DNA of 35,338 bases, from contig CAIVNC010000022.1 of NCBI GenBank assembly GCA_903907165.1, positions 1-35,338 on the forward strand, in the 5' to 3' direction. The position numbers were made by a program, and so were the translations under genes. The notes below the pieces were generated by a model. It was not told where the DNA came from. It saw only the letters and a program-made list of their open reading frames with translations, and searched no databases. The DNA is from Candidatus Buchananbacteria bacterium. Lineage in GTDB: Bacteria > Patescibacteriota > Patescibacteriia > 2-01-FULL-39-33. Numbering within the stretch: position 1 is the first letter of the stretch; every line of letters begins with the position of its first letter. Below, piece after piece: positions 5,110-35,338 of this stretch.

Positions 5110-7227
5110 TTAGTAGTTAGCTAGTTCTTCTTCGTTGACATTGTAGATTGGTTTTTTGCCATAGCTCTTGAGTTTGGCAATAGTTGGGATATATTGTTTT
5201 TGACCATTTACGATAACGTAAATTCTGCCAGTTTCAACGGAGCGAAGTAACGTGCCATCGGCGTAGACTTTTACTCCTAGTACCTGGCCTTTCAGTGCAA
5301 TACTGTAAGTCACTTTACCAGTGCTAATAACGGTTGTCTTGGCCAGTGATAAATTCATATCGTCAATTCGGCCACGAGTATCAGAATTAAGAATCGTTGA
5401 GTTATTGTTTAATTTTCTACTTTCGGTATTGCTAAGTATGCCGTCACAATTAGTATCGATGGTGGTAATGCAAAGACCATTGACTTTCTGCCATTCAATT
5501 ATGGCTTTGGTGGTTGCTAGATTAAGAACGCTTGTAGGTGTACTGGGCAAGGCTCTGGCATAAGTTCCAGTATTTTTATACTTCAGGAAGGTTTGTAGGC
5601 CGATGATATCGCTATCAGTTTGATTGTATTTAATATCATGGCCAAACCAGAGATCGGTAATCACTTGAGTAGTGGTAGCTACCGGCGCTGTGATTGTAGT
5701 GGTAAATGATTGGTCAATGCCGGTGGCCGTACCAGAAGCGTTAGTGGCAAAAGCTTGAAAATGATAAGTTGTGCCAGAAATTAAACTGCTAAGATTGGCA
5801 GTAAGGGCTATTGATGATGTTCCAGTGGTGCTAGCTGTAAATGTGTGACCGTAAGCAGTGCTGGTTCCGTAATAAAAACCAGTATTGGCGAAGTTGATCG
5901 GTAAGTTGCCAGTGTTAGTGATTAAACCGTTAAGCGTAGCCTTGGTTGTGGTTACGTTAGTTGCTACATTTGTGGTTACTGTTGGCTTGGAGGTGGTGGC
6001 TATTTGTTGGCCGCCAGAACCGCTACCGCCGCCACCACCGTTCGTAGTGGTTGATACAGCATTTTTATCCAAAGTGGCTGCCACTGCGCTAGACAAAGGA
6101 TATTTTTGAGCATCGGTCACACTGTTAGCGTTGTATTCCTGATCATTCATCCACATAATCCAGCCACCCAAACCATTAGATTTAATATAATTAATCTTGT
6201 CTGTTAATGATTGAGGATCATCGTAAGTTACAAATTTATCACCAGCCACAGTTGAAGAAGTGATACTTAAATAAGGTACGTCAGCAACAGAATCCCAATG
6301 CCAATTTGGATTGCTTGAATCTAGACTGCCATAAGTAGCTTTAATTTGAGCATAAGTTTGTTGATTTGAAGAACCGCTGCCAATAAGGAAACTTTGTCTT
6401 GGTCCAGTAACTCCGCTAGTGCAGGCAGATGTTTGGCAAACACCGGTCACGACATCGCCGTAGAAAGCCAAGCCTAAGTTTAATTTTGAAGCAGGAAGTC
6501 CACCGGCCAAATAATTCTGTCTGACTGATTCAAAGGATACGACGGCGCCAGTTCCTGTTAGTGTTCCGTTTAGAGCAGAGTTATGCCAAGTATAAGGATT
6601 CCAATTACCGAGTCCAGATTCATCGTAAGTCATAACATTAATCCTATCTAATTTGTTGTAGATAGCAATAGTTTTAGAGCTCCAGTAACGAGCATCGACT
6701 GGAGAAGTGGCTGCGTCAACAGTGAGAAGTTTTCCAGCGGCTAAGCTACCGCGTAGCTTAGTTATGAGATTAGTCATATCGGTTTGGACAGTGGCAGAAT
6801 TGTAATCGCATGATTCCCAGTCGATATCTACACCGTCATAACCGTAAGTGTTAACATTGCTAATAATACTATTCACAAACCCGGTTAAGTTGTTTTCGAT
6901 GGCTGTTTTAAAGTAGTTGGTAGAAGCGCCAGTTTGAACAGACAAAAGAACTTTAACGCCTTTGGCATGAGCCGCAGCAATTAAAGCTGGAGCTGAACCC
7001 GCCATATTATCTGTAGTAATGTCCAAATTACCAGCTGAAGTTGGTCGGGCAGCCACATGATTGATGTGAGTCATTGATGGCCAATAAATTTTACTTACTG
7101 GAATTGGATTGAATGGCGTGTAATTGCCAACACTCCATGTTTCGGCTAGCGAAGTTTTTGGCGCCAGTAAAAAGGCGCTGGCCATTAAAAAAGCGATCAT
7201 GGCCAAGATTGTAGATCTTTTAAGCAT
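5110..7227 (-). CDS. Secreted GH18 chitinase-like protein with Fn3-like repeat and peptidoglycan-binding-like domain
   Basis: Signal peptide MLKRSTILAMIAFLMASAFLLAPKTSLAE; GH18 catalytic motif YDGVDIDWE; Gly-rich linker NGGGGGSGSGG; one repeat PTVTTNVATNVTTTKATLNGLI...TYHFQAFATNASGTATGIDQSFTT; PG_binding_1-like segment; C-terminal GRIYVIVNGQKQYIPTIAKLKSYGKKPIYNVNEEELANY. Confidence 0.85.
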   Translation of the reverse strand: MLKRSTILAMIAFLMASAFLLAPKTSLAETWSVGNYTPFNPIPVSKIYWPSMTHINHVAARPTSAGNLDITTDNMAGSAPALIAAAHAKGVKVLLSVQTGASTNYFKTAIENNLTGFVNSIISNVNTYGYDGVDIDWESCDYNSATVQTDMTNLITKLRGSLAAGKLLTVDAATSPVDARYWSSKTIAIYNKLDRINVMTYDESGLGNWNPYTWHNSALNGTLTGTGAVVSFESVRQNYLAGGLPASKLNLGLAFYGDVVTGVCQTSACTSGVTGPRQSFLIGSGSSNQQTYAQIKATYGSLDSSNPNWHWDSVADVPYLSITSSTVAGDKFVTYDDPQSLTDKINYIKSNGLGGWIMWMNDQEYNANSVTDAQKYPLSSAVAATLDKNAVSTTTNGGGGGSGSGGQQIATTSKPTVTTNVATNVTTTKATLNGLITNTGNLPINFANTGFYYGTSTAYGHTFTASTTGTSSIALTANLSSLISGTTYHFQAFATNASGTATGIDQSFTTTITAPVATTTQVITDLWFGHDIKYNQTDSDIIGLQTFLKYKNTGTYARALPSTPTSVLNLATTKAIIEWQKVNGLCITTIDTNCDGILSNTESRKLNNNSTILNSDTRGRIDDMNLSLAKTTVISTGKVTYSIALKGQVLGVKVYADGTLLRSVETGRIYVIVNGQKQYIPTIAKLKSYGKKPIYNVNEEELANY

Positions 7228-10254: not shown

Positions 10255-12501
10255 TTATTGAGTGGTTAAGGTATAAGTTGTTTTGCCGTTACTTGTTGTC
10301 GGAATTAAAATTTTCTTTAAACCATTGATTTTTGTCCTAGTTGGAGTGTCGAGGTAGTAGGTGACCGTTAAACCATTTAGTTTTTGGTATTCAGTTATAG
10401 CTTTTCTAGTGGCGGCACCGAAATATGTTGTTGGCGTGTACTTGCTTAGGGCGGTTGCTGCTGAATTACCCTTGTCTTGATTAACTAAGAAAATCTGTAA
10501 AGTTTTGACATCGCTGCTTCTTTGCCCGTATTTTAGATTGCTACTAAATTGTACTGAGATATTATCGTCGTTATCGGTTGGTGGCTGATTCTGCTCGGTG
10601 GCCGTGGTAAAACTTTTATCACTTCCAATAGCTGTGCCTAAAGTATTACTAGCATAAGTTTGGTAGTGGTAAGTTGTTCCTGGAATTAAATTATGTACCA
10701 CGTAATTAAAAGCAATGGTCGTGGTAACGGCTGGTCTTTTTTGATCTATGATTCCATAGGCAGTGCTGGTGCCGAGGTAGAAACCGCTATCGGTAATGTC
10801 TAGATTGCCAGTATCAATAATTATACCATTGAGGGAAGCGCTGCTTGTACTAATATTGTCAGCATTAAATGTTTCCACTGTTGGTTCGGAAGTGTTGATA
10901 TCCAAGGGAGAAGTGGTAAAGGTCTGGTCGGTGCCATAGGCTGTTCCGGAATTATTGGAAGCATAAGCCTGATAATGGTAGGTGGTGTTAGGAAGTAAAC
11001 CAGATAGACTAGAACTAAATGTTCCAATGCCAGTAATGGTTGGGCTCTGGGGTAAATTATTGCCGTAAGAGATGGTAGTGCCATAATTAAAACCACTACG
11101 AGTAATTGTAAGATTACCATCGCTGGTTATTGCACCGTTCAAAACAACATTATTTTGGCTTATGTTGTTAGCTAGGTTAGTAATTACGGTTGGAGCAGAA
11201 GTTGGCATAGTACAAGACTGTGAAATTATTGGGTTTCCACCGGTACAGCCAGTAGGAAGCGACGTAACAACCGTTCTAGTTTGTAAACTATTTACACAGG
11301 TTGACCAGCTAGTAGAATAGGTAAACGATGTACAAGTAGTAGTTTTGCCTAGGGCTAAAGCTACGGCATTGCCGAGAGGATATTTTTGAGCATCGGTTAC
11401 GCCACTGGCATTATATTCCTGGTCGTTCATCCACATAATCCAGCCACCCAGATTATTAGACTTAATATAATTCATCTTGTCAGTCAAAGATTGAGCATCA
11501 TCATAAGTAATAAATTGGTCATTACTTGCTCCAGAATTATCAATGCTTAAATAAGGCACATCAGCCGTTGCATCCCAATGCCAATTGGGATTACTAGAAT
11601 CTAGATTGCCATAGGTAGCTTTAATCTGAGCGTAAGTTTTTTGAACTGCAGGGCCACTTCCAGCGTAGAAACTTTGTTTTGGCGCTGTTACACCGTTGGT
11701 ACAAGCTGATGTTTGACAGACGCCAGTCATAGCATCGCCGTAAAAAGCTAAACCAAAATTTAATTTACCGCTATTGCCAGTAAGGCCACCGGCTAAATAA
11801 TTAGCTTTAACTGAGTCAAATGAGACAACTCCATTATATCCATGTAGAGCAGAATTATGCCAAACATAAGGATTCCAACTTCCAAGTCCTGCCTCGTCGT
11901 AAGTCATGACACTAATCCTATCTAATTTGTTGTAGATACCAATTGTGCTAGAAGTCCAATAACGAGCATCGACAGGGGAGGTGGCCACATCAACCGTCAG
12001 CAACTTGCCAGAGCCAAGGCTATTGCGCAGACTAGTCAAAAGATTAGTCATGTCATTTTGAATAGTTGTAGAACTAAAGTCTTGAGCTTCCCAGTCAATA
12101 TCGACACCATCGTAGCCGTAAGTATTGACGTTGCTAATAATACTGCTAACGAATCCATTAAGGTTCTTCTCAATAGCTGTTTTAAAGTAATTGGTCGATG
12201 CCCCAGTCTCTACAGAGAGAAGTACTTTAACATTATTAGCATGAGCCGCAGTGATTAAAGCCGGAGCCGTACCAGCTAGATTATTGGTAGTAATGTTAAG
12301 AGTGCCATCTGAATTCGGTCTGGCAGCCACATGATTCATGTGGGTGACAGAATTCCAGTCTATATTAGAAACAGCAACTGGATTATATGGCGTATAATTG
12401 CCAACACTCCAGGTATCGGCTAGCGATATTTTTGGCGCTAGTAGAAACACACCGGCCATTAAAAAAACGATCATGGCCAAGATCGTGGATCTTTTGGGCA
12501 T
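10255..12501 (-). CDS. Secreted GH18 chitinase-like protein (paralog of 5110..7227) with Cys-rich TSP1-like module, two Fn3-like repeats and peptidoglycan-binding-like domain
   Basis: Near-identical signal peptide and GH18 core (YDGVDIDWEAQ); CTSFTYSTSWSTCVNSLQTRTVVTSLPTGCTGGNPIISQSC; two 'TYHYQ.YASN..GTA.G.D..FTT' repeats; PG_binding_1-like C-terminus. Confidence 0.85.
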   Translation of the reverse strand: MPKRSTILAMIVFLMAGVFLLAPKISLADTWSVGNYTPYNPVAVSNIDWNSVTHMNHVAARPNSDGTLNITTNNLAGTAPALITAAHANNVKVLLSVETGASTNYFKTAIEKNLNGFVSSIISNVNTYGYDGVDIDWEAQDFSSTTIQNDMTNLLTSLRNSLGSGKLLTVDVATSPVDARYWTSSTIGIYNKLDRISVMTYDEAGLGSWNPYVWHNSALHGYNGVVSFDSVKANYLAGGLTGNSGKLNFGLAFYGDAMTGVCQTSACTNGVTAPKQSFYAGSGPAVQKTYAQIKATYGNLDSSNPNWHWDATADVPYLSIDNSGASNDQFITYDDAQSLTDKMNYIKSNNLGGWIMWMNDQEYNASGVTDAQKYPLGNAVALALGKTTTCTSFTYSTSWSTCVNSLQTRTVVTSLPTGCTGGNPIISQSCTMPTSAPTVITNLANNISQNNVVLNGAITSDGNLTITRSGFNYGTTISYGNNLPQSPTITGIGTFSSSLSGLLPNTTYHYQAYASNNSGTAYGTDQTFTTSPLDINTSEPTVETFNADNISTSSASLNGIIIDTGNLDITDSGFYLGTSTAYGIIDQKRPAVTTTIAFNYVVHNLIPGTTYHYQTYASNTLGTAIGSDKSFTTATEQNQPPTDNDDNISVQFSSNLKYGQRSSDVKTLQIFLVNQDKGNSAATALSKYTPTTYFGAATRKAITEYQKLNGLTVTYYLDTPTRTKINGLKKILIPTTSNGKTTYTLTTQ

Positions 12502-27805: not shown

Positions 27806-29158
27806 ATGGATAATTTATTAAAGTCGAAGCCAGCAAAAAAAGCTTGGGTGGTTACGGTGGATATGGGGTATGGCCATCAGCGAGCCTCTTATCCGCTCAG
27901 TGTCTTCTCTGAGGGCGAAATCATCTCAGCTAATAGTTACAAAGGCATTCCTGATGCAGATAGAGTTATTTGGGAAAATAGTCGCAGCTTCTATGAGTTT
28001 ATCTCTCGTTTTAAAAACGTGCCGTTCTTGGGCGAGAGAGCTTTTGATTTGTATGACAAATTTCAAGCCATTCCGCAATTTTATCCCAAACGCGATCTAT
28101 CTAAGGGCAATATTCAACTAAAAGAGATTTATTCTTTGTTTGAAAAGAAAAATTGGGGTAAACATTTGATAGACAAATTAGCCAAAAAGAAAATTCCTTT
28201 AGTGACGACTTTTTTTGTGACAGCGATGATGGCTGAATATTTTAAATATCCAGGACCAATCTTTTGCGTCATTTGTGACACCGATATTAGCCGCACTTGG
28301 GTGCCCCTAAAGCCTCGAGAAAGCCGAATCCATTACTTTGCACCAAATAAAAGAGTTGTCGACCGCTTGAAGCTTTATGGTGTCAGTGAGGAGCGAATTT
28401 TCTTGACTGGCTTTCCTTTGCCGCTTGAAAATCTTGGCGATAATTTGAAATTGTTAAAGCAAGATGTGGGTAAGCGCTTGATTAATCTTGATCCGGAGAA
28501 GGTTTACATTTCCCAGTATCGTAAAACTATCAATACTCAGCTTGGGATTAAAAATCTCAAGATGACGCCAACTCGGCCGCTGACGATTACTTTTGCTGTT
28601 GGTGGAGCTGGAGCTCAGAGAGAGCTTGGAGCGACGATTTTGGGCAGTTTGCGTCAGGATATTGAAGATGGCAAGATCAGGTTTAATCTGGTGGCCGGCG
28701 TTAATGGTGATGTTAATCATTATTTTAAGGATGTTATTCACGATCTGAAATTAAGCGGTCGGAGTAAGAAGAATGTTAGTATTATTTTCCATCCAGACAA
28801 AGATGGTTACTTTAAGGAATTTAATAAGGTTTTAAGAACGACCGATATTTTGTGGACCAAGCCGAGCGAGTTGTCTTTTTATTGTGCTCTAGGCCTTCCG
28901 ATTGTTATTGCTCCGCCGATTGGCTCGCAGGAAATATTCAACCAGAAATGGCTCCAGGCGATCGGTTCTGGTATGAATCAGGATAATCCCAAGTACACGG
29001 CGGAATGGCTCAATGACTGGCTTAATTCAGGCTGGCTAGCTGAGGCGGCTATGCAGGGGTTCCTTGAGGCGCCAAAATATGGCACGTTCAATATTGAAAA
29101 ATTAGTGTTTAATCATAGCGACGAGGCCAAGAAGGTAAAAATGTTTTTACAGTACTAA
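27806..29158 (+). CDS. MurG/MGDG-synthase-like glycosyltransferase
   Basis: VTVDMGYGHQRASYPL N-terminus; ITFAVGGAGAQRELGATIL; TTDILWTKPSELSFYCALGLPIVIAPPIGSQEIFNQKWLQAIGSG (GT28-like C-terminal pattern). Confidence 0.6.
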   Translation: MDNLLKSKPAKKAWVVTVDMGYGHQRASYPLSVFSEGEIISANSYKGIPDADRVIWENSRSFYEFISRFKNVPFLGERAFDLYDKFQAIPQFYPKRDLSKGNIQLKEIYSLFEKKNWGKHLIDKLAKKKIPLVTTFFVTAMMAEYFKYPGPIFCVICDTDISRTWVPLKPRESRIHYFAPNKRVVDRLKLYGVSEERIFLTGFPLPLENLGDNLKLLKQDVGKRLINLDPEKVYISQYRKTINTQLGIKNLKMTPTRPLTITFAVGGAGAQRELGATILGSLRQDIEDGKIRFNLVAGVNGDVNHYFKDVIHDLKLSGRSKKNVSIIFHPDKDGYFKEFNKVLRTTDILWTKPSELSFYCALGLPIVIAPPIGSQEIFNQKWLQAIGSGMNQDNPKYTAEWLNDWLNSGWLAEAAMQGFLEAPKYGTFNIEKLVFNHSDEAKKVKMFLQY

Positions 29159-29656: not shown

Positions 29657-29727
29657 CGGGTTGTGGTATAACGGCATTATACGCGATTCGGGTTCGCGTG
29701 ACGGCGGTTCAATTCCGCCCAGCCCGA
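29657..29727 (+). tRNA. tRNA-Pro (anticodon CGG)
   Basis: Acceptor CGGGTTG/CAGCCCG with C1; anticodon arm CGCGA-TTCGGGT-TCGCG; T arm GGCGG-TTCAATT-CCGCC; no encoded CCA. Confidence 0.87.
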
Positions 29728-29763: not shown

Positions 29764-31137
29764 ATGCCTAGTAACCAGAGAGATTATCAATTTATTGAAA
29801 GTACTATAAGTCTTTGTTCTGTTTGTCTAAAGAGAATAGACGCAAAAATTGTTTCGAAGGATAATAAAGTTTTTATTTTGAAATATTGTCCAGAGCATGG
29901 TGATCAAGAGTGTATCTTGGAGGATGATTCTGCGTATTATGCAAAAAGAATGTTGTACACAAAGCCTGGTTCAGTTTCAAAAATACAAACAACTAGAAAG
30001 GATAATTGCCCATTTGATTGTGGTCTTTGTCCTGAGCACGAACAACATTCCTGCATAGGACTTATTGAAGTAACAAATGATTGTGATTTAAAATGTCCAG
30101 TTTGTTATGCAAATAGTGGGTCTGGAGGTCATTTGCCATTGCCAAAAATAAATGAGATGCTGGATTTTTTTGTTGATTCTGAATTTGGAAGTGCTGAAAT
30201 TTTACAGATTAGTGGAGGCGAGCCAACCACACACCCAGAAATAATTGAAATTATAAAACTCGCAAGAGAAAAGAAGATAAAATATGTAATGCTAAACACC
30301 AATGGATTACGTATTGCTGAGGATGAAGAGTTTGTTGAGAAGCTTGCCCAATTTAAAGGTAATTTTGAGATTTATCTTCAATTTGATGGATTTGATGAAA
30401 AAGTTTATCGACACTTAAGAGGAAGGGATTTATTGGAAATAAAATTAAAGGCAATAGAAAATCTAACTAAATATAAAATACCTATAACTCTGGTTTCTAC
30501 AGTAGAGAAAGGTATTAATGATCAAGAAATTGGAAAAATAGTTGAATTCGGAATAAATAAAAAATATATCAGAGGTATAAATTTTCAACCAGTTTCTTTT
30601 TTTGGAAGACTGGTAGATGTTAATAGAAAAGACAGAACGACTATAACAGGTATTATTGATAGTATAGAAAAGCAAACAAATGGAATGATCAAAAAGAATG
30701 ATTTTATTCCTTTGCCTTGTAATGTCGATAGGGTTGCCATAACATATTTATATCGAGTGAATGATGAGTTTATTCCGTTAACTAGAGATCTTGATGCTAA
30801 GAATTATTTATCTTCAATTAGAAATACCTTTAAATTTGATCCGGAGGATTTTTTAAGTGATTTAACAAAAAATATTTTTTCTTCAGTTAGTGGTTGTTGT
30901 AATTATTTGTCTTTTTTTGGAAAGCTAAAAAAAATAGTTCCAGCTAGCTATTTGTTAAAATCAGAGGAGGATAAGATAGAATACGTGAGTGAAAATACTT
31001 TTAGAATAAGCATAACTTCGTTTGTTGATGCTTATAATTTTGATATGAAATCAATGAAAAAAGAGTGTGTTCATATAATTACCCCAGATTTAAAGAAAAT
31101 TCCTTTTTCCGCTTATAATATAATACACAGGAAATAA
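29764..31137 (+). CDS. Radical SAM protein of the MJ0619/tetraether-synthase (Tes)-like type
   Basis: N-terminal Cys-rich SLCSVCLKRIDAKI...KYCPEHG; CPFDCGLCPEHEQHSCIGLIEVTNDCDLKCPVCYANS (CX3CX2C); LQISGGEPTTHPEI. Confidence 0.75.
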   Translation: MPSNQRDYQFIESTISLCSVCLKRIDAKIVSKDNKVFILKYCPEHGDQECILEDDSAYYAKRMLYTKPGSVSKIQTTRKDNCPFDCGLCPEHEQHSCIGLIEVTNDCDLKCPVCYANSGSGGHLPLPKINEMLDFFVDSEFGSAEILQISGGEPTTHPEIIEIIKLAREKKIKYVMLNTNGLRIAEDEEFVEKLAQFKGNFEIYLQFDGFDEKVYRHLRGRDLLEIKLKAIENLTKYKIPITLVSTVEKGINDQEIGKIVEFGINKKYIRGINFQPVSFFGRLVDVNRKDRTTITGIIDSIEKQTNGMIKKNDFIPLPCNVDRVAITYLYRVNDEFIPLTRDLDAKNYLSSIRNTFKFDPEDFLSDLTKNIFSSVSGCCNYLSFFGKLKKIVPASYLLKSEEDKIEYVSENTFRISITSFVDAYNFDMKSMKKECVHIITPDLKKIPFSAYNIIHRK

Positions 31138-31140
31138 ATT

Positions 31141-31779
31141 ATGCTATTTAATTTTGATCTTAGTGCTCTATTTAGTGATCCAAATAAAATATTTTCCGTT
31201 GTTGTTAATTTTGTTGTTTTTTTGTCAGTATTCTCAGTTGTAGTTGCAGTGCTAATTGATTTTATTGAATTTCATCAGAGAAAACAAACAAAGAAAGAAA
31301 AAAATAGTATTGTAGAGACTGGAACAATGTTTTTTTTCTTTTTCTTTTTTTACTTTTTTATTAGGTTTAGTGTAGGCATTGTTAATGTGGATTTTTTACC
31401 AATGAGATTGTTTTTATTGTTTCTGGGTTTGTTTATGGTTGTTATCGGTTGTTTGGTTAATGTAGCAGGTAGATTTAATTTGGGTAAAAATTGGTCAAAT
31501 CAGATAAAAATTTATAACGATCATCATTTTATCTCATCTGGAATGTATGGACTAGTTAGACATCCTTTGTATGCTTCTATAATATGGATGTTTTTTGGAG
31601 CGAGTTTGGTTTACTCTAATTGGGTTGCTTTTTTGTCTAATATATTTATTTTTATTCCTTTTATGTATTACAGGGCTAGACAAGAAGAGGCATTACTTGA
31701 GACAGAATTCGCCGGGTATAAAGAGTATAAAAGAAAAGTGGGAATGTTTTTACCTAATTTATTTAATAAAAAACAATGA
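31141..31779 (+). CDS. Isoprenylcysteine carboxyl methyltransferase (ICMT/PEMT)-like membrane methyltransferase
   Basis: Multi-TM; HHFISSGMYGLVRHPLYASIIWMFFGASLVYSNW...YYRARQEEALLETEFAGYKEYKRKVGMFLP. Confidence 0.82.
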   Translation: MLFNFDLSALFSDPNKIFSVVVNFVVFLSVFSVVVAVLIDFIEFHQRKQTKKEKNSIVETGTMFFFFFFFYFFIRFSVGIVNVDFLPMRLFLLFLGLFMVVIGCLVNVAGRFNLGKNWSNQIKIYNDHHFISSGMYGLVRHPLYASIIWMFFGASLVYSNWVAFLSNIFIFIPFMYYRARQEEALLETEFAGYKEYKRKVGMFLPNLFNKKQ

Positions 31780-32219
31780 AAAAATATAAACCAGTAGTTA
31801 TTCCTAGTGCTGCCTTTGCTTTTTGCAGATATAGTATGGCTATTTTAATATGGCTGTCTTTATTTTTACATTCAAAGTATCTTCTTGTTTTCGTTTTGAT
31901 TATTTTCTTATTGTCGGCAATATTTAAGATAAAAAAGTCCCCAATGATTTTACTCTATAGCTATACTGTGAATAAGATTATTAAATCAAAAGATGAAATT
32001 TTAAATGAGCATGCTATGAGATTTGCTCATCTTGCTGGTAGTTTTTTTAGTTTGATATGCTTATTGCTTTTATTCTTTGTTAATGAAAAGGCGGGATGGA
32101 TTGCTGTTTTTATATTTGCTCTCCTTAAAACTGTTTCCGTTTTTGGTTTTTGCCCAGCTTCAAAATTGTACGAATGTGCTACAAATGATAGTTGCTGTGC
32201 TTTTATTAAAAAATCATGA
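31776..32219 (+). CDS. DUF4395-like membrane protein
   Basis: 147 aa multi-TM; terminal FGFCPASKLYECATNDSCC resembles the GFCPxC motif of DUF4395 proteins; overlaps neighbours at both ends. Confidence 0.6.
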   Translation: MKKYKPVVIPSAAFAFCRYSMAILIWLSLFLHSKYLLVFVLIIFLLSAIFKIKKSPMILLYSYTVNKIIKSKDEILNEHAMRFAHLAGSFFSLICLLLLFFVNEKAGWIAVFIFALLKTVSVFGFCPASKLYECATNDSCCAFIKKS

Positions 32220-32998
32220 TAGACGATCATTTTTATCCAGAAAATTGGGGCGTAAGGCCTATTTTGTTTAAAATAGGGAATTTTGATATTCAATCATATC
32301 CATTTTTTGTGTTGTTGGGTTTAATCGTCGGATTGTCAGTTTACTTTTATGAATCGAGACGAAAGAAGAATATAAATGAAAATGGCTTCATGATAGTTAT
32401 CGGTTCTTTGATCGGTGGAACAATTGGTTCAAAATTTTTACAGTGGGCGATTGACTATAGATATATAATTTCTCATTTTTACAATTGGAGATTTTTTATC
32501 TCCGGTCGGACAATCGTTGGTGGAATGATTGGAGGAGTTATTGGTGTCCTGGTGACAAAAAAAATTCTTGGCACAAAAGAAAAAAGAGGAAATTTATTTG
32601 CCCCGGCAGTGGCGATCGGCGTTGCCATTGGTAGGTTGGGTTGTTTTTTTAGAGGTTGTTGTTACGGAAAGGCCACCGCCTTGCCATGGGGAGTAGATTT
32701 TGGTGATCATGTTCTAAGACATCCAACTCAACTTTATGAATCATTATTCATGCTAGGAATGTTCGTTTATTTGGAAAAAATAAAGAATAATTCAGATATT
32801 AAGGATGGCCAACTATTTAAGATATTAATGCTTTCTTACTTTATTTTTAGATTTTTTATAGAGTTTATTAGAGAAGAAGGAGTAGTTTTTATTGGCTTAA
32901 CCGTATTTCAAATAATTTCAATTGGTGCTATAATTTATCTAATTAAAGATAATATAATAAATTTAATCTTAAAAATTAAATCATATGCTAAAAGATGA
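32216..32998 (+). CDS. Prolipoprotein diacylglyceryl transferase (Lgt)-like protein
   Basis: FISGRTIVGGMIGGVIGV; AVAIGVAIGRLGCFFRGCCYGKATALPWGVDFGDHVLRHPTQLYESLF; FIEFIREE. Confidence 0.82.
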   Translation: MIDDHFYPENWGVRPILFKIGNFDIQSYPFFVLLGLIVGLSVYFYESRRKKNINENGFMIVIGSLIGGTIGSKFLQWAIDYRYIISHFYNWRFFISGRTIVGGMIGGVIGVLVTKKILGTKEKRGNLFAPAVAIGVAIGRLGCFFRGCCYGKATALPWGVDFGDHVLRHPTQLYESLFMLGMFVYLEKIKNNSDIKDGQLFKILMLSYFIFRFFIEFIREEGVVFIGLTVFQIISIGAIIYLIKDNIINLILKIKSYAKR

Positions 32999-33335
32999 AA
33001 AACAGGGAAAAATAATAAGTATGAACTATGAGTCCAGGACTGATTATTACACAACACCTGGAAAGAAAGTAGGAGATTTTCTTATGGGATTTTTTGGTTT
33101 TTTGGCGTTATCTTTTGTTGGTTCAATTTTGGGTTCTATTATTTCTTCTTTTGGCTCAAATGGGTTTATTAGTTCTATTTTTGGTATTTTTCTCTTGTTT
33201 GTCGCACTGGGTCTATGTATTTTCTTCTTTAAGATAAAAAGAAGATTTATTGCCATTGGAATTATTTCTATTACTCTGATTCCAGTTCTACTTTTTGGTA
33301 GTTGTCTTTTATTGCTTTCTCCTTGGAATCGTTAA
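32985..33335 (+). CDS. Small membrane protein, last in the radical SAM operon
   Basis: 116 aa with about three TM segments; overlaps the 3' end of the Lgt-like gene. Confidence 0.6.
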   Translation: MLKDEKQGKIISMNYESRTDYYTTPGKKVGDFLMGFFGFLALSFVGSILGSIISSFGSNGFISSIFGIFLLFVALGLCIFFFKIKRRFIAIGIISITLIPVLLFGSCLLLLSPWNR

Positions 33336-33349
33336 TTTGCTAAAAACAA

Positions 33350-33379
33350 AAAATCCTCGGTTAATTCCGAGGATTTTTT
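33350..33379. terminator. Bidirectional Rho-independent terminator
   Basis: AAAAAATCCTCGG-TTAATT-CCGAGGATTTTTTT. Confidence 0.92.
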
Positions 33380-34104
33380 TATCCGACAATAACTTTATCA
33401 AAATATTTTTCTAAAATCTTTTTCGCTTCTTCAACTTGCTCAGTGGTTGGCGGTTCTAGGTGGGCTAACTTATAATCCATGCCCATATGTTCGTATTTGT
33501 GCTTGCCGAGCGTGTGGTAGGGCAGTAGTTCAAGTCGTTCAACATTTTTAAACTCTTTGAAATACTCGCCAATCGACTCCAGATGTGCTGCTGAGTCGGT
33601 CAGGCTCGGTACGAGAACATGTCTGATCCACATCGGCTTGTTTATTTCCTTGAGATAATTGGCTAACGCCAAAGTATTCTCATTGCCGGCGCCAGTCAAT
33701 TTTTTATGCTCCTCATTATTAATCTGTTTGATATCCAAAATTACCAAATCGGTATAATTGAGCAGTTCTTTGACCTGGTCATTAAAAATACAGCCGTTGG
33801 TGTCGAGAGCAGTATGGATGTCGTCATTTTTTAATAGTTTGAATAAATCGATCAAGGCCTCGGCTTGGACCAACGGTTCGCCGCCAGAAACGGTCACGCC
33901 GCCATTGTTTTTGAAATATGGCTTTTGATCGACAGCCATGCGAACTATTTTGAGCTTGCTGATTTCTTTGCCGTGATCCATGGCTTGGGTGTCAGGATTG
34001 TGGCAATACAAACAGCGCCAAGGACAGCCTTGCAAAAAGACCACCAGACGGATGCCGGGGCCTTCATGAGTGCCAAAAGTTTCAATCGAGTGGACATTAA
34101 GCAT
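33379..34104 (-). CDS. pflA: Pyruvate formate-lyase activating enzyme
   Basis: MLNVHSIETFGTHEGPGIRLVVFLQGCPWRCLYCHNPDTQ (CX3CX2C); GGVTVSGGEPLVQ. Confidence 0.94.
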   Translation of the reverse strand: MLNVHSIETFGTHEGPGIRLVVFLQGCPWRCLYCHNPDTQAMDHGKEISKLKIVRMAVDQKPYFKNNGGVTVSGGEPLVQAEALIDLFKLLKNDDIHTALDTNGCIFNDQVKELLNYTDLVILDIKQINNEEHKKLTGAGNENTLALANYLKEINKPMWIRHVLVPSLTDSAAHLESIGEYFKEFKNVERLELLPYHTLGKHKYEHMGMDYKLAHLEPPTTEQVEEAKKILEKYFDKVIVG

Positions 34105-34924
34105 CTTGAGTCGCGCTTTGTTTGTGGGAGTAAATAAACCAGTAGGCGAGCCAGATCAGCACGCCGCCGATGATGTTGCCGATCGTAACTGGCAAAAGAT
34201 TGTGGACGAAGAAATTGCCCCAAGTGAGCACGCCAGCGTCAATCGCTTTTGAGGCGACAAAGCCCGGGTCGAAGGTTTTGATAAGCAATGCTTCGGTGAC
34301 GAGATACATGTTGGCGACAGAGTGCTCAAAGCCCATGGCCACGAAAGCGGAGACTGGGAAAACGATAGCTAAGATTTTGTCAGTGGTGGACTTGCCGTTG
34401 AATGACAGCCAGATAGCCAGGCAGACCATGAGGTTACACAAGATGCCGAGGACGATAGCTTCGATAAAACCATGATGCATTTTGGGCAAGGCGATAGAGA
34501 AAACGGCTTGGCCAAAAGCGCCACCGGAAACAGCGTATTCTTTGGCGAGGAAAAGTAAAAAGGCGATGAACATGGCGCCGACAAAGTTGCCGACATAAAC
34601 CATGGCCCAGTTTTTGATTAGACCCCAGATTTTGATTTTGCGGTTGAGCCAAGCGACAGAAACAAGCGTTGAGCCGGTAAAAAGCTCTGCTCCGCCGATG
34701 ACGCAGAGAATGAGGCCAAGACTGAAAACGATGCCCATGATGAGGCGCATAATGCCAAATGGCACTATTCCGGTAGCACCGGTAGCAATCACCGTAGCGA
34801 AGATGCCACCCATGGCCACGTAAGCTCCGCCCAGGATGGACAGAGTGAATAAATTCTTTGGCGAGTGGCTAGCCTTTTTGATGGCGTAGACCTCAGCCTG
34901 AGCGTTCATTTCTGATGGTGTCAT
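34097..34924 (-). CDS. focA: Formate/nitrite transporter (FocA/NirC family)
   Basis: Six-TM; LFTLSILGGAYVAMGGIFA, GAELFTGSTLVSVAWLNRKI, NWAMVYVGNFVGAMFIAF, GFEHSVANMYLV, VTIGNIIGGVLI. Confidence 0.92.
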   Translation of the reverse strand: MTPSEMNAQAEVYAIKKASHSPKNLFTLSILGGAYVAMGGIFATVIATGATGIVPFGIMRLIMGIVFSLGLILCVIGGAELFTGSTLVSVAWLNRKIKIWGLIKNWAMVYVGNFVGAMFIAFLLFLAKEYAVSGGAFGQAVFSIALPKMHHGFIEAIVLGILCNLMVCLAIWLSFNGKSTTDKILAIVFPVSAFVAMGFEHSVANMYLVTEALLIKTFDPGFVASKAIDAGVLTWGNFFVHNLLPVTIGNIIGGVLIWLAYWFIYSHKQSATQDA

Positions 34925-34933
34925 AAATTTGGA

Positions 34934-35338
34934 TTATAAGCTTTGGTGGAAAGTTCTGGCCAAGACTTCTTGTTGCTGGTCTCTGGTCAGTTTGATGAAA
35001 TTAACGGCATAACCGGAAACACGAATAGTGAGTTGAGGGTAGTTTTCTGGATGTTCCATGGCGTCCATTAATGTTTCACGGTTCAGAACATTGACGTTGA
35101 GGTGATGAGCGCCTTTTTGGAAATAACCATCAAGAAGGGCAGTTAAATTCTGTCTTTTTTCTTCTTCGGTTTTGCCTAGAGTCTGTGGAACAATGGAAAA
35201 AGTATTGGAAATACCGTCGCGAGCAAATTCGTAATCTAGTTTAGCAACAGAATTCAAAGAGGCGATAGCGCCATGAGTATCGCGGCCGTGCATTGGGTTG
35301 GCGCCAGGAGCAAAAGGTTCGCCAGCTTTGCGGCCATC
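34934..35338 (-). CDS. pflB: Pyruvate formate-lyase C-terminal part (gene continues beyond window)
   Basis: [51 protein letters not shown]...[28 protein letters not shown]: glycyl-radical motif RVSGYAVNF. Frame is open to base 35338; the track start at 35293 is an internal Met. Confidence 0.96.

Follow-up and report, generated by a model that had tools for sequence, protein, structure and literature searches.

We identified in bacteria from many phyla, at scattered positions, an undescribed gene set that pairs a radical SAM enzyme related to the archaeal tetraether synthase (Tes) with a relative of the lipoprotein-lipidating enzyme Lgt and a tiny membrane protein ending in a conserved cysteine. 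Our best reading, which is inferred and tentative, is that this set builds an unknown lipid or lipid-protein link in the membrane. The set came to light in a stretch of 35,338 nucleotides from Candidatus Buchananbacteria bacterium (contig CAIVNC010000022.1, hereafter the window), for which an original prediction had proposed a five-gene operon for lipid or lipoprotein tailoring at positions 29764-33335. The operon exists as described, whereas the function assigned to it was only partly supported by our analysis.

A conserved operon with a three-gene core

All five open reading frames (ORFs) lie on the forward strand and encode a radical SAM protein of 457 amino acids (29764-31137), an ICMT/PEMT-type membrane methyltransferase of 212 amino acids with an RHPLY...EE...Y..Y motif (31141-31779), a DUF4395 membrane protein of 147 amino acids with a C-terminal Cys-rich tail, GFCPASKLYECATNDSCC (31776-32219), an Lgt-like membrane protein of 260 amino acids (32216-32998), and a membrane protein of 116 amino acids (32985-33335). 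The spacings are +3, -4, -4, and -14 nt. The sequence motifs on which the original prediction relied, among them CDLKCPVCY in the radical SAM protein and HPTQLYES in the Lgt-like protein, are present letter for letter. Pfam searches supported Radical_SAM plus the HMPTM N-terminal zinc ribbon (6.9e-17), ICMT (2.6e-13), DUF4395 (7e-16), and LGT (2.3e-38). The ICMT-like protein scored below the NCBIfam cutoff for protein-S-isoprenylcysteine methyltransferase (79.9 against 160 bits). The operon was also said to end at a strong terminator. A 13-bp stem with A/T tracts does lie at 33348-33379 between convergent genes, but although it was the only terminator-like hit, 1.9 hits were expected in shuffled sequences, so a strong terminator is plausible but not significant by that scan.

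Lack of conservation of the neighborhood had been named in advance as grounds to reject the prediction, and we surveyed related loci. The same five-gene order recurs in another family of the same class and in several phyla, so it is not chance. In 73 of 83 related loci from about ten phyla, the radical SAM gene sits beside an Lgt-like gene, and 5 of the other 10 loci are cut by contig ends. In a Bacteroidota-centered sample of 198 genomes, we found the radical SAM gene in 16 and the Lgt-like gene in 17, with 16 shared and 15 adjacent (Fisher test, 1.2e-22). In a Paenibacillus-order sample of 151 genomes, 27 had the radical SAM gene and 27 the Lgt-like gene, in the same genomes and adjacent in all. 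Over the 349 genomes, 43 had the radical SAM protein, 44 the Lgt-like protein, and 43 both, adjacent in 42. The neighborhood is thus much more conserved than could be seen from the window alone. The DPANN archaeal members were not relied on, since short contigs may be misbinned.

A third partner recurs, which the original prediction had counted but to which it had given no role. The small protein of the window has three helices and a conserved Cys near the end of the last one (VLLFGSCLLLLSPWNR); its start codon is likely internal (MNYESR..., 104 amino acids). A small membrane ORF with a Cys near the outer end of its last helix was present in 63 of 73 loci, against 23 of 123 control ORFs (Fisher test, 2.8e-21). 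It recurs in divergent actinobacterial cassettes (only 27% radical SAM identity), in two tandem copies in Mycobacterium branderi. In 20 representatives, the Cys lies a median of 21 residues after the last basic residue, like a signal-peptide h-region followed by a lipobox. We found no Pfam or NCBIfam family for this protein. In contrast, the ICMT and DUF4395 genes, named in the original prediction, were found only in the window's subclade and are accessory to the core formed by the Lgt-like, radical SAM, and small Cys-tailed proteins.

Divergence from Tes and from canonical Lgt

In order to evaluate whether the radical SAM protein belongs to the Tes/MJ0619 family or, as would have refuted the original prediction, to an unrelated subfamily, we compared folds, profiles, and phylogeny. 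An AlphaFold model (pLDDT, 87.5; pTM, 0.90), computed with sequences from the window and from genome loci, matched GDGT-MAS/Tes (MJ0619; PDB 7tom/7tol) over the full length in Foldseek with a TM score of 0.82, the next unrelated hit scoring 0.38, and phmmer gave 1.3e-81. The protein is thus of the Tes fold and not of an unrelated subfamily. It carries the Cys/His residues of the rubredoxin-like site (C18, C21, C42, and H45; CX2C...CX2H), the N-terminal cluster (C82, C86, C89, and H92; CX3CX2C plus His), and the radical SAM cluster (C107, C111, and C114; CX3CX2C), together with the extra invariant residues H95, C97, C319, and C435. A Cys-rich stretch lies near residues 378-391. However, sequence identity to Tes is only about a third. 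The NCBIfam Tes model matched (8.8e-101) with 338 bits, below its curated cutoff of 450, and the match ended near residue 321; relatives behaved likewise. The best full-length NCBIfam match was the radical SAM (seleno)protein TrsS (NF045646), with the same domain order, but its 374 bits, and the 317 to 342 bits of relatives, were below the cutoff of 490. In a quick tree, the TrsS clade was supported (SH-aLRT, 100) and the window's protein fell in a clade apart from both Tes and TrsS; Mss, the bacterial membrane-spanning lipid synthase, was not included. We detected no Lgt-like gene in the short (about 4 kb) TrsS loci.

Three C-terminal Cys positions, presumed cluster ligands, are shared by Tes, TrsS, and the other Tes-like enzymes. 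Two of these were absent from 42 of 42 sequences of the window's clade, and the third was kept in only 8 of 42. In this clade and its sister, the two positions are occupied by E/S and S/E/D. The alternative invariant C319 and C435 may substitute, which was not examined on structural coordinates. Chain coupling, as in Tes, thus cannot be read off by homology, and tetraether synthesis is not established.

A second, canonical Lgt had been proposed as a check on the operon copy. We found one in the genome, and a canonical Lgt coexists in most genomes with the system, so the operon copy is a specialized paralogue. LspA, to be sought alongside it, was not found, but the draft genome is only 86% complete. 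The Lgt-like protein has the Lgt fold (Foldseek to 5azb; E value, 1.9e-8), passes the cutoff of PF01790, and retains an RHPxQLYE-type segment, the Arg of the GRxG signature (R140), and R212, equivalent to the essential Arg143 and Arg239 of E. coli Lgt and kept in 72/73 and 73/73 aligned rows, respectively. In contrast, His103 and Asn146, both essential in E. coli Lgt (PMC4728403, PMC13251419), were absent from all 72 aligned Lgt-like proteins: His103 is replaced by V/M/I/L (V101 in the window) and Asn146 by Cys (C143). The protein also scored below the NCBIfam lgt cutoff. These changes make canonical lipoprotein lipidation unlikely; diacylglyceryl transfer to a lipobox Cys was not assayed. The Y26H and N146C changes described for the second mycobacterial homologue, MSMEG_5408 (PMC13251419), match those of the family described here. 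As its neighborhood was not examined, we take its membership as a lead only. An Lgt hit in Acetoanaerobium turned out to be a canonical Lgt, with HGG and GN motifs, beside rsmH and ftsI-type genes.

Candidate functions

We propose a horizontally spread, three-part membrane system, to which we assign a probability of about 0.4. In this view, an Lgt-like integral membrane enzyme that still binds a phosphatidylglycerol-type lipid would most likely transfer a phospholipid-derived group (diacylglyceryl or acyl) to the thiol of the small protein, whose last helix would end in a lipobox-like [small]-x-Cys at the outer face of the membrane and which would not be cleaved. The Tes-fold radical SAM enzyme, acting from the cytosol on alkyl chains, would form a new C-C or C-S bond on the lipid chain before or after transfer, and in the window's subclade the ICMT-type methyltransferase and DUF4395 would add a further step. 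Our data demonstrate the operon, its conservation, the linked presence and absence of its genes, the fold assignments, and the residue changes, whereas the substrates, the reaction, the order of steps, and the sidedness of the Cys are deduced. In favor of this view, Tes is a lipid enzyme with a hydrophobic pocket and a carbon-sulfur cluster intermediate (PMC9433317), and a pair of Tes-like radical SAM proteins in another genome sits with ACP, ketoreductases, a weak FabA-like hit, a cysteine desulfurase-rhodanese, and ICMT. Several points weigh against this view. There are no biochemical data, and the loss of His103 and Asn146 makes transferase activity itself uncertain. The motif of the small protein is only roughly a lipobox, a cytosolic radical SAM enzyme cannot act directly on an outer-face Cys, and topology rests on the positive-inside rule rather than on an experiment. 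A lipid or lipoprotein tailoring role, as originally predicted, nevertheless remains the best general guess; the accompanying suggestion that the organism may not make its own fatty acids was not examined. A more far-reaching version, which is compatible with the data but doubtful, is a hitherto undescribed class of bacterial modification in which a small integral membrane protein is permanently lipidated near its C terminus by a noncanonical Lgt, and a Tes-fold enzyme with a rebuilt auxiliary cluster joins the lipid chain to another chain or to sulfur, giving a protein-anchored or cross-linked membrane lipid.

Two alternatives appear unlikely, to a similar degree. In the first, that of the original prediction, the radical SAM protein is a bacterial Tes/Mss equivalent that couples the ends of two lipid chains, and the other genes prepare or finish head groups. 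The full-length fold, the conserved rubredoxin-like, N-terminal, and radical SAM cluster motifs, and the Tes profile match are in its favor, and bacterial Tes homologues were proposed to make membrane-spanning lipids (PMC8941075). Mss is reported to share the Tes catalytic architecture (PMC13274423), and the Tes profile gave no hit in T. maritima within the limits of our search. Lipids were not analyzed here. Against this reading stand the subthreshold score, the separate clade, and the missing Cys positions, since the C-terminal cluster is the site close to both lipid pockets in the enzyme whose intermediate is bonded to a cluster sulfur (PMC9433317). In addition, the obligate partner is an Lgt-like protein, which tetraether synthesis does not need.

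In the second, the small membrane protein is itself the radical SAM substrate, modified before insertion and then lipidated or anchored by the Lgt-like protein. The cassettes contain one or two small genes, often duplicated and variable except for the Cys, and the radical SAM core has distant similarity to peptide maturases such as SkfB. However, Pfam and NCBIfam searches found no recognized peptide-binding (RRE) or SPASM domain, the C-terminal half is Tes-like, built for lipid chains, and the small proteins are mostly three-helix membrane proteins rather than leader-core peptides.

Thiol or redox chemistry, in which the invariant Cys residues of the Lgt-like and small proteins form a disulfide or metal site serving the radical SAM product, is less likely still. 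Both Cys residues are on the predicted outer side, the DUF4395 tail is Cys rich, and N146C paired with a second Cys is thought to be able to form a disulfide in Leptospira Lgt (PMC13251419), but a pure redox partner would not need the phospholipid-binding arginines that the Lgt-like protein keeps. Finally, despite the Pfam LGT match and the description of the M. smegmatis homologue with Y26H and N146C as of presumed low activity (PMC13251419), we rejected as very unlikely a simple second prolipoprotein diacylglyceryl transferase for ordinary lipoproteins with an incidental radical SAM link, given the linked presence and absence in 349 genomes, the coexisting canonical Lgt in most genomes, the loss of essential residues, and the subthreshold lgt score.

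Significance and genomic setting

Tes, whose product underlies paleothermometry, has hundreds of bacterial relatives with unknown products. Our results separate off one large branch that travels with an Lgt-like protein and a Cys-tailed membrane protein in culturable genera (Flavobacterium, Mucilaginibacter, Paenibacillus, and Nostoc-type cyanobacteria), so its function can be tested in ordinary laboratory strains. We found no description of this system in the papers or family libraries searched. The results also warn against counting every bacterial Tes homologue as evidence for membrane-spanning lipids and every Lgt-family protein as a lipoprotein lipidase.

PADLOC gave only weak matches to viperin radical SAM cores, with nothing specific to defense, and searches of PHROGs and viral contigs gave nothing that points to a phage system. 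ARAGORN identified a tRNA-Pro(cgg) gene at 29657-29727 on the forward strand, immediately upstream of the operon, a possible integration boundary, although no att-like duplication of the tRNA end was identified among short AT-rich repeats. The GC content of the operon is 30%, against 40% upstream and 44-51% downstream.

A low-GC five-gene operon and its conserved neighborhood

We first examined whether the five genes of the original prediction form an operon. The five genes are located where they had been placed and overlap or nearly touch each other; the observation was confirmed. Pfam identified a radical SAM protein with an HMPTM-type N-terminal zinc ribbon, ICMT, DUF4395, and LGT, whereas the fifth protein showed no family above the cut-off. 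A terminator-like stem lies between the operon and a convergent gene, although one such hit is within chance for the region. At 33379-35338, a convergent module contains a formate-lyase activating-type radical SAM, a formate/nitrite transporter, and the end of a glycine-radical protein, with a GC content (44-51%) higher than that of the rest of the window. Directly upstream of the operon is a tRNA-Pro(cgg) gene (29657-29727), consistent with insertion next to a tRNA, but no att-like repeat was identified. The operon has a GC content of 30%, compared to 40% in the preceding 29.6 kb, where no stretch of equal length falls under 36%. The radical SAM was found in only 1 of 94 other genomes among relatives (all but nine from the same class) and in none of 379 other sampled genomes of the phylum. 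Therefore, the operon looks horizontally acquired. The genome comprises 755 kb in 57 contigs and is 86% complete.

The upstream region contained a DUF6938 protein (27806-29158) with a weak MGDG-synthase-like match (below the cut-off), a possible lipid glycosyltransferase. Farther away, an F420-0:gamma-glutamyl ligase-type protein is followed by a PF01941-type AdoMet synthetase (317-2254), a family known chiefly from archaea. Two paralogous secreted family-18 glycosyl hydrolases (5110-7227 and 10255-12501) flank a helicase-like gene, and one of them has a peptidoglycan-binding domain.

As conservation of the neighborhood had been proposed as a test of the prediction, we surveyed related loci. 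The one relative within the class, genome G070, has the same five genes in the same order, with 54-66% identity for the radical SAM and Lgt-like proteins. A scan of 84,980 genomes gave at least 562 relatives, of which the best 80 were kept. Fourteen of these (loci L014-L027), 48-67% identical, come from records labeled Chlorobiota, Paceibacterota, Bacillota, Elusimicrobiota, Woesearchaeota, Actinomycetota, Ignavibacteriota, Armatimonadota, and others, although MAG labels of short contigs may be wrong. Where the contig is long enough, these loci carry radical SAM, ICMT, DUF4395, Lgt-like, and small membrane protein genes, in this order. The remaining loci (41-45%), from Bacteroidota, Paenibacillus and kin, Cyanobacteria, and a Parabeggiatoa, lack ICMT and DUF4395 but have the Lgt-like gene mostly directly upstream of the radical SAM. 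In all, 73 of 83 loci have the Lgt-like gene nearby, and five of the ten exceptions are cut by contig ends.

Linked presence of the radical SAM and Lgt-like genes and a third partner

In order to avoid the bias of searching around the radical SAM, we searched the same genome samples separately with each profile. Among 198 genomes from the phylum of a Flavobacterium genome, the radical SAM was present in 16 and the Lgt-like protein in 17, with 16 in common and 15 adjacent; one genome has the two genes apart, and one has the Lgt-like gene alone (Fisher P = 1.2e-22). Among 151 genomes from the order of a Paenibacillus genome, each protein was found in 27, and these were identical genomes, each with the two genes side by side. 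The genomes are related, so the P value overstates independence, but the pattern is nearly perfect. An Lgt-like gene without the radical SAM is found at locus L150 (5653-6498) in a Bacteroidota genome (G891), a natural exception worth study. A second, canonical Lgt elsewhere in the genome had been named beforehand as a point to check: most of these genomes also hold a separate Lgt with a higher LGT score, as does the genome of the window, whose separate Lgt has the canonical HG and GN motifs.

Next to the pair lies a small membrane ORF (about 60-150 aa) with a cysteine near the end of its last predicted helix. It was detected in 63 of 73 loci by an automatic rule, plus at least three loci missed by the rule (L014, L018, and L063), against 23 of 123 other small membrane ORFs on the same strand (Fisher P = 2.8e-21). 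The rule also picks up DUF4395 tails in three loci and a few non-genes, so the exact count is approximate. In the window clade, the motif is [FIV]G[SAT]C, whereas GFSTC, GLGIC, NAAC, and NGGC occur elsewhere. In 20 representatives, the last basic residue lies 16-30 (median, 21) residues before the Cys, and 1-12 residues follow it. By the positive-inside rule, the Cys faces outward, the side of the Lgt active site. Several loci have two such genes in tandem. Furthermore, cassettes from Mycobacterium branderi and Nonomuraea, whose radical SAM is only 27% identical, have an Lgt-like gene and small proteins ending in SGGLCTGLNP, TVGVCTGLNP, and SAGICTGINP. We consider this third partner the strongest new finding.

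Predicted folds and altered residues of the two enzymes

The AlphaFold model of the radical SAM protein (pLDDT, 87.5; pTM, 0.90) matches GDGT-MAS over the full chain (TM, 0.82; E, 1.7e-38), while the next hits match only the barrel. A phylogeny had been suggested to evaluate the relationship with Tes. In a 65-row quick maximum-likelihood tree, the window lies in a 16-row clade (SH-aLRT, 100) sister to the Bacteroidota/Bacillota/Cyanobacteria clade (97), apart from TrsS (100) and Tes. This tree was built without ultrafast bootstrap and without any Mss sequence, and some of its branches are long. NCBIfam prefers TrsS (374 bits; cut-off, 490) to Tes (338 bits; cut-off, 450). The ligands of the rubredoxin-like site, the N-terminal cluster (C73, C77, C80, and His in MJ0619), and the RS cluster, as given in PMC9433317, are all kept. 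At the C terminus, Tes, TrsS, other Tes-like proteins, the locus L121, and the actinobacterial members share three Cys positions (one TrsS or divergent row aside). In contrast, in the window clade and its sister, two of these are lost in 42 of 42 sequences and the third in 34 of 42, and new invariant Cys 319 and 435 and a clade-specific Cys-rich stretch appear. We infer that the auxiliary cluster was rebuilt or weakened, although its Cys ligands were not taken from PMC9433317 and the geometry of the site was not examined in the model. Other Tes-like radical SAMs, at loci L012 and L013/L129 on Mycolicibacterium and haloarchaeal plasmids, are followed by a soluble methyltransferase instead of an Lgt-like gene.

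The model of the Lgt-like protein (pLDDT, 81.7) matches E. coli Lgt 5azb (E, 1.9e-8; TM, 0.64). Among 73 aligned members, the His103 position is V, M, I, or L and never His, and Asn146 is always Cys, whereas the Arg143 and Arg239 equivalents are kept. His103, Asn146, Arg143, and Arg239 are all essential in E. coli (PMC4728403, PMC13251419). However, PMC13251419 also notes that N146C occurs in distant homologues and that His103 varies in some species, so the loss of these residues is not proof of inactivity.

A possible lipid modification of the small membrane protein

Our results show a linked set composed of a lipid-type transferase fold, a lipid-type radical SAM fold, and a small membrane protein with a Cys predicted to face outward. 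Beyond this, the simplest inference is that a phospholipid-derived group is transferred to that Cys, with a radical C-C or C-S bond made on the lipid chain. No order of steps, donor, or role for ICMT and DUF4395 is assigned in this scheme. The interpretation of the original prediction is thus partly supported: the general lipid or lipoprotein direction stands, but specific tetraether chemistry does not follow. We found no description of the pair in the literature searched, which did not include subscription papers. The enzymes have known folds, but their conserved combination is undescribed, with a real chance that the system is of a new kind. Circumstantial support for the lipid scheme came from a Bacillota genome in which two tandem Tes-like radical SAMs (locus L154, 5008-7817) sit in a run with ketoreductases, acyl carrier protein, a FabA-like protein (below the cut-off), a cysteine desulfurase-rhodanese, and ICMT, suggesting a different, possibly lipid-thiol pathway.
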